Shown one piece after another: positions 19,964 to 27,603 of a stretch of 64,000 bases of DNA. The notes below the pieces were generated by a model that saw nothing but the letters and a program-made list of their open reading frames with translations, made no database searches and was not told the DNA's origin. The stretch comes from Patescibacteria group bacterium (GTDB lineage Bacteria > Patescibacteriota > Gracilibacteria > UM-FILTER-43-11): the NCBI GenBank assembly GCA_018817125.1, contig JAHIUN010000002.1:62001-126000 (forward strand). Reading direction: 5' to 3'. The position numbers were made by a program, and so were the translations under genes. Every line of letters begins with the position of its first letter. Position 1 is the stretch's first letter.

Positions 19964-20077
19964 AAGTCCGGACTCCGGCAGAGTCCGGACTTTGGGGGAA
20001 TTACATCCCTCAAAGTATTATCGGGATAATACGCTGGGGGATGTCCTGCAGGGCAGGACATGAAAGTTGTGAACTTC
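19964..20077. repeat. String of four perfect hairpins
   Basis: In a row: AAGTCCGGACTC/GAGTCCGGACTT (19964-19992), GTATTATC/GATAATAC (20015-20032, itself enclosed by ACATCCC...GGGATGT), ATGTCCTGC/GCAGGACAT (20041-20061) and GAAAGTT/GAACTTC (20062-20077, imperfect). They lie between the surface gene promoter and the 3' end of the lipoprotein gene; no gene is present. The first hairpin recurs three more times in the next 7 kb. Confidence 0.75.
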
Positions 20078-21518: not shown

Positions 21519-23243
21519 TCAGAACCGAAGGCCCATGAGCACGCGCACCATGGGGCCGTCCGGATTGACCGGATCACCGCTGGTGAACGCGCTGGTGGCG
21601 TTGTCGAGACTGAAGTGTTTGCCGCCCTCAATGCCGATAAACATGGCATCGAGACCGGTCAGCTCCAGCCCGCCCACGAGGCCCCACCCGTCGGGGTTGG
21701 GCTGTCCGTAGGCTCGCATGTAGGCGCTGACCCAGCCGGCGAAATTCACGCCGACCCGGCCACCGGCCTGGAAAACCAGGCTGGTGTCCACGGAGCGCCC
21801 ATCGGCACGACTGTCGTACACGATGGTTTCCTGGTGGGCCAGTTCCATGTGAAATCCACTGAACAGCGTCAGGTAGTTTATGATGTTCCACTCGAAGTCC
21901 AGACCGACGATACCGCCGCCAGTCCAGCCTTCGTGGTCTACCGATGCCTCGATGCCGCGGAAGCTCTGGGAAGAACTCCCGTTGAACCCGGACCACACAA
22001 ACCCCGCGTAGAGGTTCATATAGCCAGGCAGCAGAGGCTTGCTGTTGCTGGTGAACCAGGCCGAGACCGTGGGCGAACCCACGTGGCCGTAGTTAAACTT
22101 ACTCAGGCGGGTTTCGCCCGAGCACTCAGGGCATTCCGGACAATCCGGACATTCATTATTCTCACAGAAGGACTCGGCCACGTACAGCTTGACCTCACCC
22201 TTCTGGAAATTATCGAAGGGGATGGCGCGGGTAACACCCTTCGCCACCTCCACCACTGCCTGCTTCTCCGACAGGTCCGAGACCGTGCCGAAGAACGAGC
22301 CGTCACGGCTCACCGCTTCAACGGGCATGTCCTTCTTCAGGTCAGCCCATTTCGTCAAGCGGGGGCGGTGGTCACGCTCGTCGCCCGCGACCGAAAAGCT
22401 TTTCAGCTCCTCGGGAAGCGCGGAAAAACAAGCGCAGCTGGCCATCTCGAGCGCGAGCGGATCGTTTAGCTCACTCAGATCCTCGCAGAGGAAGGTGAGC
22501 TTTTCGCTCCGATCCTTCTCCGGAATCGAGTCCCGGAGGGAGATGGCAGCCTTGGCCATGGCCTTGGATCGGCCGGTGGGGTCTGCCCACGCGGCGTCAG
22601 CCGACGGCCGGTTGTAGAACTTGCTCATGTGAGCTGCGACACTGGGGCCGAGCTCGGTAGGGTCACCGATGCGGCGATACTGACCAAAGGCCTTCGTATT
22701 ACTTCCGTTGGGGCCTGCGTACCTACCCCACCACTCATTGTTAGAGAGGCGTTCCTCCTTGACAATTTTTAATACATTATTCCTGTTGAATTGTTCTCGG
22801 AGGGTGGCCTTCTGACCGAGGACGATGTCCGCGGAGCGCGGATGGCAGGTCGAGAAATCGACCAGCACGGGCTGGCGTTCGCTGTCATCGGCCGGCTTGG
22901 CCTTTTCAGCGACTTTGCCCTTGTCCGCCACGGGGGCGGGGGACTTGGTCTTGGCGACCTCACCCTTGTCCGCGGGAGCGGGGGGCTTGGTGCACGAGCT
23001 GAAGTCGGCCTTGAAGTCGGCCGGCGTGCAGCCGGCGTCGGCCAGGGCCTTGTCGACTGCGGCCTTGTTGGTCAGGTAGGGGGTACAGAAGTCGCCCTTC
23101 TTGGCGACGGTGACGAGCACCGTCTGGGCGTTGGCGTCGCTCAGGACGCCGCGCTTGTTGCACTCGGCGAGTGCGGGGTTTGCGAACAGGGTGGTGGCCA
23201 GCATGGCCGCCACGGCGAACATCACGATTGTGCTTCGTGCCAT
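21519..23243 (-). CDS. Secreted protein with C-terminal porin-like beta-barrel
   Basis: 574 residues from the ATG at 23243 (AAGGAGG 5 nt upstream). Signal peptide ARSTIVMFAVAAMLATTLF...ALA, a Cys-containing N-terminal domain, a Lys/Pro/Ala linker, a middle domain, then NECPDCPECPECSG and a region of about 180 residues of alternating beta-strands with many Gly and aromatic residues (YMNLYAGFVW, GGGIVGLDFEW, AGGRVGVNFAGW) ending in MVRVLMGLRF. A terminal Phe after amphipathic strands is the outer-membrane-barrel insertion signal. That is unexpected beside LAQTG and SLH proteins of a presumed single-membrane cell. A 20-codon in-frame extension with its own GGAGG begins at 23303. GC-rich codons suggest a foreign origin. 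Confidence 0.7.
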   Translation of the reverse strand: MARSTIVMFAVAAMLATTLFANPALAECNKRGVLSDANAQTVLVTVAKKGDFCTPYLTNKAAVDKALADAGCTPADFKADFSSCTKPPAPADKGEVAKTKSPAPVADKGKVAEKAKPADDSERQPVLVDFSTCHPRSADIVLGQKATLREQFNRNNVLKIVKEERLSNNEWWGRYAGPNGSNTKAFGQYRRIGDPTELGPSVAAHMSKFYNRPSADAAWADPTGRSKAMAKAAISLRDSIPEKDRSEKLTFLCEDLSELNDPLALEMASCACFSALPEELKSFSVAGDERDHRPRLTKWADLKKDMPVEAVSRDGSFFGTVSDLSEKQAVVEVAKGVTRAIPFDNFQKGEVKLYVAESFCENNECPDCPECPECSGETRLSKFNYGHVGSPTVSAWFTSNSKPLLPGYMNLYAGFVWSGFNGSSSQSFRGIEASVDHEGWTGGGIVGLDFEWNIINYLTLFSGFHMELAHQETIVYDSRADGRSVDTSLVFQAGGRVGVNFAGWVSAYMRAYGQPNPDGWGLVGGLELTGLDAMFIGIEGGKHFSLDNATSAFTSGDPVNPDGPMVRVLMGLRF

Positions 23244-23303
23244 CGTGGCCTCCTTAGGGTTTCGGGTTCGTTTCGAGAACTTCGAGTTCAGGTTCAGGTT
23301 CAT

Positions 23304-23736
23304 GAGAATTCGTACCTCCTTCCTCCGTATCGGAGGACGTTAAGATGCACTCTCCGATACGGTATCGGGAGCGTGCGGTTTAAAGCAATATGTGAATACT
23401 AACTTTGTCTGGTTAGCAGGGGCCAATCCCCTAAGTCTGTAAGTCTAAGTCCGGACTCCGTTGGAGTCCGGACTTGACCTAAATTTGACCTAAAAGATTA
23501 AACTCTGCTAACCAGCAGGGGGTACAAAAAACTGTTTCTGTTGTGTAGCATCAGGGCAATACCCTTGGGGGGCGGCCCTGTGCTGGTTCAATAGGGTCCG
23601 AAGTAACATCGGACTCGCTACTTAGCTTACAGTAATGAGTTGTTAAAGATCATCTAAACATGAGAGGACTTCCTGCCCTTACCCTCAAAACCAGTGGTTT
23701 TCAGGGGGGAACAGAAAGTGTTCTACGGTGTTTAGG
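23304..23736 (-). promoter_or_regulatory. Long structured 5' leader of the barrel-protein operon
   Basis: About 430 nt of non-coding leader. It contains the hairpin GTCCGATGttactTCGGAC preceded by GTAGCGA (about 23590-23622), the AAGTCCGGACTCC hairpin (23447-23475) and, next to the upstream start, CTCCGATACCGTATCGGAG and CCTCCGATACGGAGG stems beside the GGAGG. The GTAGCGAGTCCGATG part recurs in the leaders at 25.8 and 26.95 kb. Confidence 0.6.
23447..23475. repeat. AAGTCCGGACTCC hairpin, copy 2
   Basis: AAGTCCGGACTCC, a 3-nt loop, GGAGTCCGGACTT: perfect. Here it lies inside the leader; in the two cassette copies it lies just upstream of the promoter. Confidence 0.85.
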
Positions 23737-23742
23737 TTCCCA

Positions 23743-23771
23743 ATTCTATAACAAAAAATTAAAAGTGTCAA
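23743..23771 (-). promoter_or_regulatory. Promoter of the barrel-protein / lipoprotein operon
   Basis: Minus strand TTGACA (23766-23771), a 17-nt spacer and TAGAAT (23743-23748). Transcription would start near 23736. Confidence 0.7.
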
Positions 23772-24028: not shown

Positions 24029-25372
24029 CTAACTGTCATCCTCCTCGTCGGGAAGAGCGAGCGCTTGGACTCGCTTATCAGCCCTATCGAGAGAGAGCTG
24101 ATATGACCGCAACTCTATCTCGAGAATCTGGAGCTGAGCGGGGTCTGCGGCCTCGCCCTGGGCCTTGAGCTCATCGATTTGCTTGGTGAGCTCATTGATT
24201 GTGTCGCGGTGCTCCTGGGCTAAATCGAAAAAGATATCCCGGGCCAACTCGCGGACTAAGTCCTTCCTGATGGCGTCCAGCAGGGACTCCGGAGGTGCTT
24301 CGAGCGCCTCGTCGAAGTCGGTCTTGGAAACCATGAGCGCGCCGAGTGCCGCGAGCGCCCCCTTCATGAAGGGGTGCTCGGGGTGCAGGAAACCACCCTC
24401 TTCGGCCGAGGTGAGCTCGTTGACCAGCTTGACCTCGAGAGCCTCGTAGCTCTGGGCATCCACTGGGGGCAGGTCGGGAACATCATCTGCCACGATGACG
24501 GTCTCGCTGCCGGTAGGAGCGTCGGGGGTACCGGGCCCCTCGGAGTCATCATCCTTCTTCCGTCGGGTGACGAAGAAGAAGATGACGGCGGCCAGGACGA
24601 TTAGCAGCAGAGCAAGGCCAAGGATCCAGGGCCAGTAGTAACTGAACCAGCTCGGACATTCTTCGTTTCCACCTGCCTTGAGGACCCAGGGGCCGCTCGG
24701 ATGAAGGTCATCGCGGAGTGACTCAGGGCAGTTTGTGCATAGGCACACTTCGGGGAAGTCCGGAGTCTTGCATGCCACCTTTTCGGTGGTGTCCGGGCAG
24801 GTGTCGGCGAAGCCGTCCTCGCTGGGATGGAGCTTGGCCTGATGCCAGGCATTCCAGCACTTGGCGGCCTCGTAGGCCTCGCGGTCTTTCTTGTTCTTGA
24901 GCGCGGCCAGGCGGTCGGCCTTGTCCTTGCGAGCCTTCTCGGCGGCGGCCAGTTCGGCCTTGGTCATGCAGACGTCGTCTACGTCCCGGCCGACGGTCAC
25001 GAAGGTGCCGGCCAGTTCGGGTTCGTCGCACTCACAGTGCGACTTGTCCGCTGTCTCGTGCGTGCCTTTGGGGCACTTGATGGTCGGTTTGGCTACTCTG
25101 ACCGCTTTGCAAGCCGGCAGAGCACTGAAGGCTTCGTTGACCACCTTCCGGCAGGCCTTCAAACACAAAGGATCGCCGGCGCAGCTCATTTCGCAGCCAT
25201 TTAGCGTACTGCTCATAAGGTTTTTGGCCTTATGGGACTGGCACTGCTGCTGGGTGAGCTTTACGTAGTAGGGGAATTTCTGGATTTCATGGTCGATGGC
25301 CGCCATTGCGGCCGGAGTGAGGCCGGTCAGGCCGAAGACCATCAGGGTCAGCAACAGAATTCTCCGTTTCAT
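24029..25372 (-). CDS. Cys-rich single-pass membrane protein with cytoplasmic coiled coil
   Basis: 447 residues from the ATG at 25372 (AAAGGAG 9 nt upstream). Signal peptide RRILLLTLMVFGLTGLTPAAMAA, an ectodomain of about 200 residues with some 20 cysteines (NGCEMSCAGDPLCLKACRK, HCECDEPE, VCLCTNCPE) and a Lys/Glu/Ala helix in the middle, a membrane helix (about 246-270, WPWILGLALLLIVLAAVIFF) followed by RRKKDDD as stop-transfer, then an acidic linker and a C-terminal helical region rich in heptads (ELTKQIDELKAQGEAADPA). The topology resembles a receptor or adhesin with an inside tail. I recognise no family. A 20-codon in-frame upstream extension with a strong GGAGG starts at 25432. Codons are GC-rich. 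Confidence 0.72.
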   Translation of the reverse strand: MKRRILLLTLMVFGLTGLTPAAMAAIDHEIQKFPYYVKLTQQQCQSHKAKNLMSSTLNGCEMSCAGDPLCLKACRKVVNEAFSALPACKAVRVAKPTIKCPKGTHETADKSHCECDEPELAGTFVTVGRDVDDVCMTKAELAAAEKARKDKADRLAALKNKKDREAYEAAKCWNAWHQAKLHPSEDGFADTCPDTTEKVACKTPDFPEVCLCTNCPESLRDDLHPSGPWVLKAGGNEECPSWFSYYWPWILGLALLLIVLAAVIFFFVTRRKKDDDSEGPGTPDAPTGSETVIVADDVPDLPPVDAQSYEALEVKLVNELTSAEEGGFLHPEHPFMKGALAALGALMVSKTDFDEALEAPPESLLDAIRKDLVRELARDIFFDLAQEHRDTINELTKQIDELKAQGEAADPAQLQILEIELRSYQLSLDRADKRVQALALPDEEDDS

Positions 25373-25432
25373 GGTAACTTCTCCTTTCAAAAAACAGTTA
25401 TTAGTCTGAAGACACAGTTTCGTTCCAGTCAT
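25373..25432 (-). other. 20-codon in-frame upstream extension (alternative start)
   Basis: GGAGG, 6 nt, then ATG at 25432, in frame with the main start at 25372 and without a stop: MTGTKLCLQTNNCFLKGEVT. Nearly the same peptide precedes the gene at 26168-26659, and a different peptide of exactly the same length precedes the barrel gene (23244-23303). It is either an N-terminal extension or a leader peptide read through to the gene. Confidence 0.55.
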
Positions 25433-25999
25433 TTTTTACCTCCTCCCCGTAAAGGGATGTGAACTCCCCAACGGGGGAGAGGATTCAAGGGAAATTACTA
25501 ACAAGCCGTATTTATTTTTTTATATAGTCGTAATTTGTAATTTGTTCGCTCGTGGCGAACGTAACTTGTAACTGGTAATTTTTGCCTCATATTTTTATAA
25601 ATTACGAGTTACTAGTTGCGAGTTACAAATTACGAACAATAAATTAAAAACAAATATAGCTTGTCAGTATCTCCCGGTAAGCTAGAAAAAAGTGTAAGTT
25701 TATAAAACATCCAAAAGCATCCGCACCCTCCGTTAAGAGGGACGAATCAGCTCATTGGATAATTATAAATCTTACTATCAATAGGGTCCGATGTCCATCG
25801 GACTCGCTACTTATAACCCTATCCTGTAAAAGATCATATCCCGCTCTGAGAGCTGGGATTCCGACGATATCATTCAGTCAAAAAAGCGCAGGCAATAAAA
25901 GCCGGATGGCTTTAAAAAAAGTTGCGCGTTGTGTCCGCCCGGTGATGGGGGATCAGGTTGGTTCGAACCAAAGTTTTTGACTTAAATGATAAAAGTCGG
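25433..25999 (-). promoter_or_regulatory. Long structured leader, cassette copy 1
   Basis: About 620 nt from the predicted start site to the main ATG. Recognisable parts in transcript order: GGTTCGAACC, GCTCTCAGAGC inside ATCCC...GGGAT, GTAGCGAGTCCGATGGACATCGGAC (25780-25811), CTCTTAACGGAGGG, CTCCCCCGTTGGGGAG and GGGGAGGAGG at the start site. It is near-identical to 26720-27171 except for an AT-rich palindrome (25527-25637) present only here. Confidence 0.65.
25527..25637. repeat. GTAATTTGTAATTTG palindromic family, copy 2
   Basis: GTCGTAATTTGTAATTTG on the left, TTACAAATTACGAAC on the right. The duplicated leader at 26720-27171 lacks it and has only a short unrelated stretch at the same place (about 26795-26815), so this copy looks like an insertion or a precise loss. 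Confidence 0.8.
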
Positions 26000-26005
26000 A
26001 TTGCA

Positions 26006-26034
26006 ATTGTAGGTTATTTTATAAAATTTGTCAA
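26006..26034 (-). promoter_or_regulatory. Promoter, cassette copy 1
   Basis: Minus strand TTGACA (26029-26034), a 17-nt spacer and TACAAT (26006-26011). Identical to the promoter at 27178-27206. Confidence 0.82.
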
Positions 26035-26053
26035 GATAAAAAGTCTTACGTCT

Positions 26054-26082
26054 AAGTCCGGACTCCGTTGGAGTCCGGACTT
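26054..26082. repeat. AAGTCCGGACTCC hairpin, copy 3
   Basis: A perfect hairpin with a 3-nt loop, about 20 nt upstream of the -35 box of cassette copy 1 and just past the terminator of the preceding gene. Confidence 0.85.
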
Positions 26083-26102
26083 TACTTTATTACTAAGAAA
26101 AT

Positions 26103-26130
26103 CCCCGCCCCGGCAGATGCCGAAGCGGGG
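26103..26130 (-). terminator. Terminator of the small Cys-rich secreted protein
   Basis: CCCCGC..CGGC AGAT GCCG..GCGGGG, followed on the minus strand by ATTTTCTT. A copy lies at 27274-27303. Confidence 0.75.
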
Positions 26131-26167
26131 AGAATAGGGGGCAGAGGGGCGACTACTATAGAGGGTG

Positions 26168-26659
26168 CTATTGACTGGTGGCCTGGATGACAGCTTTCAT
26201 ACACAACTCGTACAGGGCGTCGTCATCCCCGTGCAGGGTGCCGCAATTTCCTTCGATGACACCTCTCATGGAACGATCTACCTTGTCAAGAAGACTCCTG
26301 AATCGGGGATGGCTCTGGGGATGATTCTTGTACTTCTGAACCCAGTTCTCTTCGGCCTTGCAGGTGTACTTTTCCGGCACCTTGGCCACCCACTCTTTGC
26401 ACTTCCTGAGCAGGGTGTCATCGTCCAGGTATCCGTTGCAGGACGAGCGAGCGAAAGCTTTTTCTCTGGCGACATTGGCATTGAGCCATCTCTTGAGCCG
26501 GCAGTCATTGCCGCAGTCCCCTCCAGGGCACTTTGCGGCTTTCTGAAGCAGTTGGTCAGCCTCCGCAGCCCCCTTGAAATTGGGCGCGTCGGCCCAAGCG
26601 GTGGCGGTCAGGCTCATCAGAGCTGCCACCAGAGCGATCAGCAGGATTCCTCGTTTCAT
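26168..26659 (-). CDS. Small Cys-rich secreted protein, unknown
   Basis: 163 residues from the ATG at 26659 (AAAGGAG upstream). Signal peptide RGILLIALVAALMSLTATAWA, then a mature part with about nine cysteines (AAKCPGGDCGNDCRLKRW, SSCNGYLDD, RKCKEW, KYTCKAEENW, GNCGTLHGDDDALYELC) and predicted helices. I recognise no family. A 20-codon in-frame extension with GGAGG begins at 26719. The leader and promoter are duplicates of those of the membrane protein at 24029-25372, and a 5'-truncated paralogue of this gene follows at 27335. The arrangement suggests a small family of co-expressed secreted factors. Confidence 0.7.
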   Translation of the reverse strand: MKRGILLIALVAALMSLTATAWADAPNFKGAAEADQLLQKAAKCPGGDCGNDCRLKRWLNANVAREKAFARSSCNGYLDDDTLLRKCKEWVAKVPEKYTCKAEENWVQKYKNHPQSHPRFRSLLDKVDRSMRGVIEGNCGTLHGDDDALYELCMKAVIQATSQ

Positions 26660-26719
26660 GGTAAGTTCTCCTTTCAAAAAACAGTTATTAGTCTGAAGAC
26701 ACAGTTTCGTTCCAGTCAT

Positions 26720-27171
26720 TTTTTACCTCCTCCCCGTAAAGGGATGTGAACTCCCCAACGGGGGAGAGGATTCAAGGGAAATTACTAACAAGCCAGATCC
26801 GCCTCTTAAAAATAAGAAACAGATACGGCCTGTCAGTACTTCCCGGTAAGCTAGAAAAAAGTGTAAGTTTATAAAACATCCAAAAGCATCCGCACCCTCC
26901 GTTAAGAGGAACGAATCGGCTCATTGAATAATTATAAATCTTACTATCAGTAGGGTCCGATGTCCATCGGACTCGCTACTTATAACCCTATCCTGTAAAA
27001 GATCATATCCCGCTCTGAGAGCTGGGATTCCGACGATATCATTCAGTCAAAAAAGCGCAGACAATAATAGCTCAAAAGCTTTATTGAAAGTTGCGCGTTG
27101 TTTCCGCCCGGTGATGGGGGATTAGGTTGGTTCGAACCAAAGGTTTTTTGACTTAAGTAAATAAAAGTCGG
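26720..27171 (-). promoter_or_regulatory. Long structured leader, cassette copy 2
   Basis: About 510 nt from the predicted start site to the main ATG. It carries the same blocks as copy 1: GGTTCGAACC, GCTCTCAGAGC, GTAGCGAGTCCGATGGACATCGGAC (26949-26979) and CCCCGTTGGGGAG. It lacks the AT-rich palindrome. Conservation of this non-coding stretch at near-coding level argues for an RNA or DNA function, or for a recent duplication. Confidence 0.65.
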
Positions 27172-27177
27172 ATTGCA

Positions 27178-27206
27178 ATTGTAGGTTATTTTATAAAATT
27201 TGTCAA
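27178..27206 (-). promoter_or_regulatory. Promoter, cassette copy 2
   Basis: Minus strand TTGACA (27201-27206), a 17-nt spacer and TACAAT (27178-27183). Confidence 0.82.
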
Positions 27207-27225
27207 GATAAAAAGTCTTACGTCT

Positions 27226-27254
27226 AAGTCCGGACTCCAACGGAGTCCGGACTT
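27226..27254. repeat. AAGTCCGGACTCC hairpin, copy 4
   Basis: AAGTCCGGACTCC, a loop AAC, GGAGTCCGGACTT. The loop differs from copies 2 and 3 (GTT) while the arms are intact. Confidence 0.85.
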
Positions 27255-27273
27255 TACTTTATTACTAAGAAAA

Positions 27274-27303
27274 CCCCCGCCCCGGCAGATGCCGAAGCGG
27301 GGG
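27274..27303 (-). terminator. Terminator of the truncated paralogue
   Basis: CCCCCGC..CGGC AGAT GCCG..GCGGGGG, followed by GTTTTCTT on the minus strand. A duplicate of 26103-26130 with one more base pair. Confidence 0.75.
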
Positions 27304-27334
27304 AATAGGGGGCAGAGGGGCGACTACGTGGAGC

Positions 27335-27597
27335 CTATCGACCAGTGGCCTGGATGACAGCCTTCATACACAGTTCGTACAGGGCGTCGTCATCCCCGTG
27401 CAGGGTGCCGCAGTTTCCTTCAATGATTCCTCTCATGGAACGATCTGCCTTGTCAAGAAGACTCCTGAATCGAGGATGACTCTGGGGATGATTTTTGTAC
27501 TTCTGAACCCAGTCCTCTTCGGCCTCGCAGGCGTACTTCTCGGGAAGGCCGGCAACCAGCGTCTTGCACTTCTTAAGATCAGAATCGCTCTTATAAG
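27335..27597 (-). pseudogene. 5'-truncated copy of the small Cys-rich secreted gene
   Basis: Reads in frame to the same C-terminus as the intact gene (EKYACEAEEDWVQKYKNHP, DKADRSMRGIIEGNCGTL, MKAVIQATGR and stop) with scattered substitutions, but begins abruptly near YKSDSDLKKCK without signal peptide or start. The reading frame is undisturbed, so the truncation is recent or the fragment is a donor for gene conversion. The break lies against the promoter of aroD, which runs the other way. Confidence 0.8.
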
Positions 27598-27603
27598 AGA
27601 CAA

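Follow-up and report, generated by a model that had tools for sequence, protein, structure and literature searches.

Small mobile repeats of bacteria are usually placed loosely between genes. The attC sites of integrons are conserved in structure rather than in sequence: an unpaired spacer lies between two paired boxes with the cores GTTRRRY and RYYYAAC, the terminal body is variable, one strand is folded and the site often adjoins a start codon. In the nut sites of phages and in rRNA leaders, the hairpin behind boxA belongs to the signal. ERIC/RU-1, Correia/NEMIS and YPAL/RU-2 share with the repeat described here a size of ~100–200 nt, the lack of a transposase gene, a dispersed and mostly intergenic location, 5′ and 3′ ends that pair into a long stem, and the occurrence of empty and filled sites. 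YPAL targets span or adjoin a dyad symmetry, with duplications of 3–26 bp (PMC2229807). REP sequences associated with RAYT (TnpA-REP) have an imperfect hairpin with GTAG at its foot and take a strand-specific single-stranded form (PMC8266576, PMC3733652).

The window (the whole stretch of DNA that was analysed, 64,000 nt) is carried by a genome of 1.03 Mb in 17 contigs that is 89% complete (G000). After a plus-strand aroD-like gene (27676), the minus strand carries a truncated paralogue of the small secreted protein (gene B), identified by comparing the sequence with the ORFs and the duplication described below and corresponding to the C-terminal part (~27340–27603). Leader B with its promoter follows at 26720–27206 (−10, 27178–27183; −35, 27201–27206) and precedes the small secreted protein, for which no relatives were found in a first scan of the genome contigs. 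Then come leader A (25433–26034 with its promoter; −10, 26006–26011; −35, 26029–26034) in front of a Cys-rich membrane protein and leader C (23304–23771 with its promoter; −10, 23743–23748; −35, 23766–23771) in front of the barrel-type protein of the barrel operon. The two leaders that were folded, B and C, gave z values against shuffled sequences of −9.8 and −10.9, and both have counterparts in the sister species G001 of the same genus. In all six surface-protein leaders read, two in-frame start codons, each with a Shine-Dalgarno sequence, are separated by ~17–30 codons, and the downstream one lies at the signal peptide (25372–25432, 26659–26719 and 23240–23303 in the window; also in L042 and L133), which looks like a conserved dual start or an N-terminal extension.

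The initial annotation had pointed to A and B as near-identical leaders in front of different genes. Common to both are the promoter, GGTTCGAACC, GCTCTCAGAGC, the GTAGCGAGTCCGATG hairpin and the start-site stems, and self-BLAST of the region bore out the similarity, aligning 25641–26371 with 26809–27538 at 92% and 25352–25507 with 26639–26794 at 97%. They are near-identical because both sit in a minus-strand tandem duplication (copy 1, 25352–26371; copy 2, 26639–27538), the unit of which (~1 kb) comprises the gene start region, the leader, the promoter and the terminator and 3′ end of the preceding gene. The repeat unit thus reaches into the preceding gene, and a truncated paralogue is left; the similarity of leaders A and B reflects one local tandem duplication, of which each represents one half, and not the retention of a leader before unrelated genes. 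An alignment of A, B and G1a, a full-length A-type relative in G001 that is 75% identical, delimited a ~133-nt stretch rich in inverted repeats that is found in leader A only (25508–25640, minus strand); it consists of imperfect inverted repeats of GTAATTTGTAACTCG-like units. In the same alignment, G1a keeps GATCTTTTACA yet lacks the hairpin altogether.

Leader C had been described as keeping only the part that begins with GATCTTTwACA. With A and B it has in common a hairpin block of 37 nt (~90% identical), the 11-mer GATCTTTWACA and a 43-nt stretch containing the palindrome AAGTCCGGACTCCRACGGAGTCCGGACTT. The earlier observation of a changed loop on a kept stem was correct: the hairpin loop of leader C is unlike that of A and B, with the upper stem preserved. 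All three hairpins lie on the minus strand, at 26946–26983 in leader B (AUAAGUAG-CGA-GUCCGAUG-GA-CAUCGGAC-C-CUACUGAU; 64.9 bits with R1, a short model built from this copy among others; absent from G1a), at 25777–25814 in leader A (64.7 bits; the duplicate of the B copy) and at 23587–23625 in leader C (57.6 bits; alignment of the orthologous leaders). Flank comparison identified a right-hand extension of the C copy (..AACCAGCACAGGGCCGCCCCCCAAGGG; 23562–23586, minus strand), which is also present in long copies elsewhere. In G001, the orthologous leader C matches at 88% identity along the promoter and the first 140 nt and carries at the hairpin site a 144-nt copy, GTAG-CGA-GAAACGC ... GCGTTTC-C-CTATT, with ends and internal loop as in G000 and a wholly different upper stem and body. 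Judging from the promoters, the leader copies would be transcribed as part of their leaders.

These hairpins belong to a dispersed family of structured repeats. Searches with R1 and sequence patterns yielded first copies beside a tRNA gene in G001, in the rpsS–rplV spacer of G001 and G012 and, in G005, upstream of tuf. A long copy was then seen inside the 16S rRNA leader of G015; a structural filter over the loci gave more, including copies before ftsE in G000 and before rplB in G006. R1 matches within coding sequence (L085, L100) and one weak match (L088) were discarded as chance. A long model, R2, found matches in 39 of the 353 genomes of the class, distributed over about ten families, and G000, G001, G005, G006 and G012 contained at least nine copies each; since no more than nine candidates were scored in any genome, the true copy numbers may be higher. 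Frequent neighbours are tRNA, ribosomal-protein, tuf and rRNA genes, in both orientations, and head-to-tail copies a few nt apart also occur. The loose pattern RTAGYGAN{12,42}CCTAY stayed below its control in most genomes and gave no new copies by eye, and none of the 33 viral contigs scanned for AGTAGYGAGAAACGYG matched the long model. The folded repeat is undescribed; a full-text literature search on Peregrinibacteria/Patescibacteria repeats and RNAs returned no paper on such an element.

The full repeat measures ~130–160 nt: above the closing stem (AGTAG/CTAYT) come an asymmetric internal loop (YGA/C), a variable upper stem and two arms. Six long copies, aligned by sequence with MAFFT, fold into a three-way junction of 33 pairs, 20 of which are compensated; none of 500 shuffles reached this result, and slid controls were 37–49% paired compared with 95% observed. 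Double-sided changes were seen at 28 of the 33 pairs among 51 matches of R2 and at 29 of 33 in a second set of 31 matches from mostly other genomes and families, both alignments being fitted to the model and hence leaning towards it. In these model-fitted alignments the closing helices, which form terminal inverted repeats in an element of less than 200 nt, are paired in ~96–99% of cells. The GTAG is base-paired with CTAY and co-varies with it (ATTG/CAAT, AGATG/CATCT; AGTGG and AGTTG in further copies). Among wobble pairs on the GTAG strand, G.T outnumbers A.C by 83 to 16 in one set and by 38 to 5 in the other, an asymmetry to which the fitting of the alignments to this strand contributes in part; for the same reason, we read the bias only cautiously as a sign of a strand-specific folded form. 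The right-hand extension (CAGYACAGGGANGCTC) of many long copies can pair with the upper closing stem (e.g., L068 540–620), and this pairing would form an alternative hairpin, mutually exclusive with the closing-stem fold. Rfam gave no match at gathering score for the leaders or long copies searched; a relaxed E-value produced sub-threshold matches alone, which we read as chance, and assignment to a known RNA family was rejected.

The functional RNA suggested for the leaders is thus upheld in one respect, namely that the fold is maintained: the model search of related genomes that had been proposed as a check yielded many further copies, with compensatory changes far above controls. The further idea that the hairpin is nothing more than a leader RNA kept while its leader diverged is not supported: the repeat adjoins tRNA, ribosomal-protein, tuf and rRNA genes in either orientation, is absent from G1a and has a different 144-nt body in the C leader of G001. 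The hairpin is better read as the short form of a dispersed structured repeat that is probably mobile, and the case illustrates that, when leaders are compared, a dispersed repeat may be taken wrongly for a regulator passed on by descent.

Empty and filled sites were found when the ribosomal-protein operon, collinear in G000 and G001 with segments mostly 82–87% identical, was compared. The repeat precedes rplN and rplF in G000, where G001 has a short, empty spacer; likewise, ftsE is filled in G000 and empty in G001, and the A-type leader has the hairpin in G000 and is empty in G001 (G1a). At rplV, a short copy is present in G001, the site is filled in G012 and decayed in G000, where mainly the gene-proximal part TTTCTCACTACTAACTATG remains, and the spacers read in other family members are plain. 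With its size below ~200 nt, terminal inverted repeats and empty as well as filled sites, the repeat resembles MITE-like elements. At tuf, both G000 and G001 carry it, altogether three genomes of two genera; the two same-site copies compared are 58% identical, below average, compared with ~85% in the adjoining sequence. Such divergence fits replacement or fast turnover, and equally a conserved structure under functional constraint. The presence at tuf in two genera and in both sister C leaders could mean selection. For 20 of 49 copies the nearest relative lay in the same genome, against 7 expected.

The placement of the copies is exact. In 22 of 92 copies, the ATG of a gene that points away from the repeat is separated from the closing stem by exactly 4 nt; only five further copies have a start codon 30 nt away or less, 27 in all. 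At the 5′ ends of tRNA genes, another 13 of the 92 keep a distance of 2–5 nt (exactly 4 in seven of them, with one further copy at 18), and 16 lie 3–4 nt after a tRNA 3′ end. These counts rest on unannotated draft genomes and predicted gene starts; for rplN, rplF, rplB, rplO and rplV, which encode familiar proteins, the start codons are not seriously doubtful. Duplications of the tRNA start, 10–14 bp long, flank three copies that abut tRNA-Leu 5′ ends, and no clear target-site duplication was seen at start codons or at other tRNAs. To our knowledge, placement of such precision is not known for small bacterial repeats, and we know of no transposition mechanism that explains an exact 4-nt spacing to start codons. 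A tRNA cluster in G001 (contig C41, L043 3800–4210) is missing from the same place in G000; at least one of its tRNAs was matched only with a ~65-nt insert, which suggests an intron, and a short repeat copy lies directly in front.

Taken together, the hairpin of the three leaders represents a short, internally reduced member of a repeat family dispersed in Ca. Peregrinibacteria, and we consider it rather probable that this repeat is mobile but non-autonomous and acts as a folded single strand. The form recognised would be one folded single strand, the GTAGYGAG strand, moved as such by a putative enzyme acting in trans. Its left end would be attached beside gene boundaries, at ~4 nt from start codons and tRNA 5′ ends or 3–4 nt beyond tRNA 3′ ends. 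No mobilising enzyme was identified, and Y1-transposase (RAYT-type) genes do not track the repeat. More tentatively, the element may represent a new class in which a folded single strand is joined precisely at gene ends (4 nt before start codons, 3–4 nt from tRNA 5′ or 3′ ends, or adjoining other copies), with gene or RNA boundaries being recognised instead of a target sequence. Single-nucleotide placement and near-complete compensation imply either a boundary-recognising insertion mechanism or a common RNA-end function, and we know of neither. The repeat occurs in several families of a lineage with reduced genomes, and for copies upstream of essential ribosomal genes an effect on expression can be tested by comparing sister species with and without it.

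Compared with the systems mentioned above, the repeat differs from ERIC, Correia and YPAL in its exact spacing to start codons and tRNA ends, its three-way junction with compensatory changes in nearly every pair and the lack of visible constant TA ends; it is known from Peregrinibacteria, the one class searched. With attC sites it shares the conserved structure, the spacer between paired boxes, the variable body, one folded strand and the proximity to start codons, but it ends in AGTAGYGA and CTAYT without a GTTRRRY/RYYYAAC core, adjoins tRNA genes and was seen with neither cassette arrays nor an integrase.

The leader copies also resemble the boxA leaders of rRNA operons, suhB and lambda nut, in which a boxA-like motif is followed by a hairpin in a long leader RNA. 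On the minus strand of the window, the motif is GATCTTTTACA in leaders B (26994–27004) and A (25825–25835) and GATCTTTAACA in leader C (23641–23651), each agreeing at 11 of 11 positions with GNTCTTTWANA; the published boxA consensus is GYTCTTTAANA (PMC5725501). From sequence alone, such a motif lies 9–16 nt upstream of the modelled repeat in five leader families, comprising A/B, C with its G001 orthologue, leader 1 of G001, L199/L133 of G012 and an SLH-protein leader of G005 (10/11), whereas the non-leader copies tested reached at most 9/11 in the same interval. Because the motif is confined to leader copies, antitermination is a live rival for these. Motif and hairpin would then form a cis-acting RNA in which boxA recruits a NusB-S10/Nus complex, allowing RNA polymerase to pass the long, structured and untranslated leaders of abundant surface proteins; these are 430–600 nt long and strongly folded, and TGTTCTTTTGAAT and TGTTCATTAACAG in the rRNA leaders of relatives resemble the motif. 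Such a short, AT-rich motif is weak evidence by itself, however, G1a in G001 retains it without the hairpin, and most copies of what is the same dispersed repeat lack it, many being oppositely oriented at gene starts. A leader function of the hairpin together with the boxA-like motif is possible, but as an explanation of the hairpin we regard antitermination as somewhat unlikely.

A slightly weaker alternative, which we rate as unlikely, is that the repeat is a functional element of RNA processing or expression at gene boundaries that, in highly expressed genes, sets where RNAs end or translation begins and was spread by duplication and maintained by selection. It is favoured by the exact spacing to start codons and to both tRNA ends, the neighbourhood of tRNA, ribosomal-protein, tuf and rRNA genes, the very strong covariation and the survival of mainly the gene-proximal TTTCTCACTACTAACTATG at rplV of G000. 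It fits poorly with a sister species that has the same essential genes, rplN and rplF, without the repeat, with both orientations relative to tRNAs, with the interchange of long and short bodies in the C leader and with a wobble bias in favour of the strand that is antisense with respect to the genes whose start codons lie nearby.

An origin as a REP-type palindrome mobilised by a RAYT (Y1 HUH) transposase appears quite improbable, even if the repeat shares the GTAG at the 5′ foot, the imperfect hairpin with an internal loop, the strand asymmetry and the extragenic location, and even if Y1_Tnp genes of ~180–230 aa are present in G000 and G001. Here the GTAG is paired, variable and changes together with its partner, and the full repeat is 130–160 nt long instead of 20–40, a size that the short form alone fits. 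No such hairpin was found at the flanks of the 13 Y1_Tnp loci read, and a RAYT/REP origin was rejected. The repeat shows no association with RAYT genes: G005, G013 and G004 contain the repeat without a Y1 match, and G008, G014 and G010 show the reverse, the genomes being incomplete. Y1-type transposase genes of this family (loci L067, L068, L069, L071, L076 and L079) have in common a TATTTAAATGAATA-like motif immediately in front of the start codon.

Ordinary duplication alone, with the match in leader C due to chance, can hardly be right, for although the tandem duplication itself is real, the genome searches refuted this by giving the C block many independent relatives with compensated stems.

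The palindrome AAGTCCGGACTCC was rejected as the functional part common to the leaders, being a separate, widespread repeat. Four copies of the palindrome AAGTCCGGACTCCNNNNGGAGTCCGGACTT lie in the window (19964–19992, 23447–23475, 26054–26082 and 27226–27254). There are about nine in the genome and 22 + 25 half-site matches in G053, which belongs to another family, and the palindrome is probably a bidirectional terminator or a repeat.
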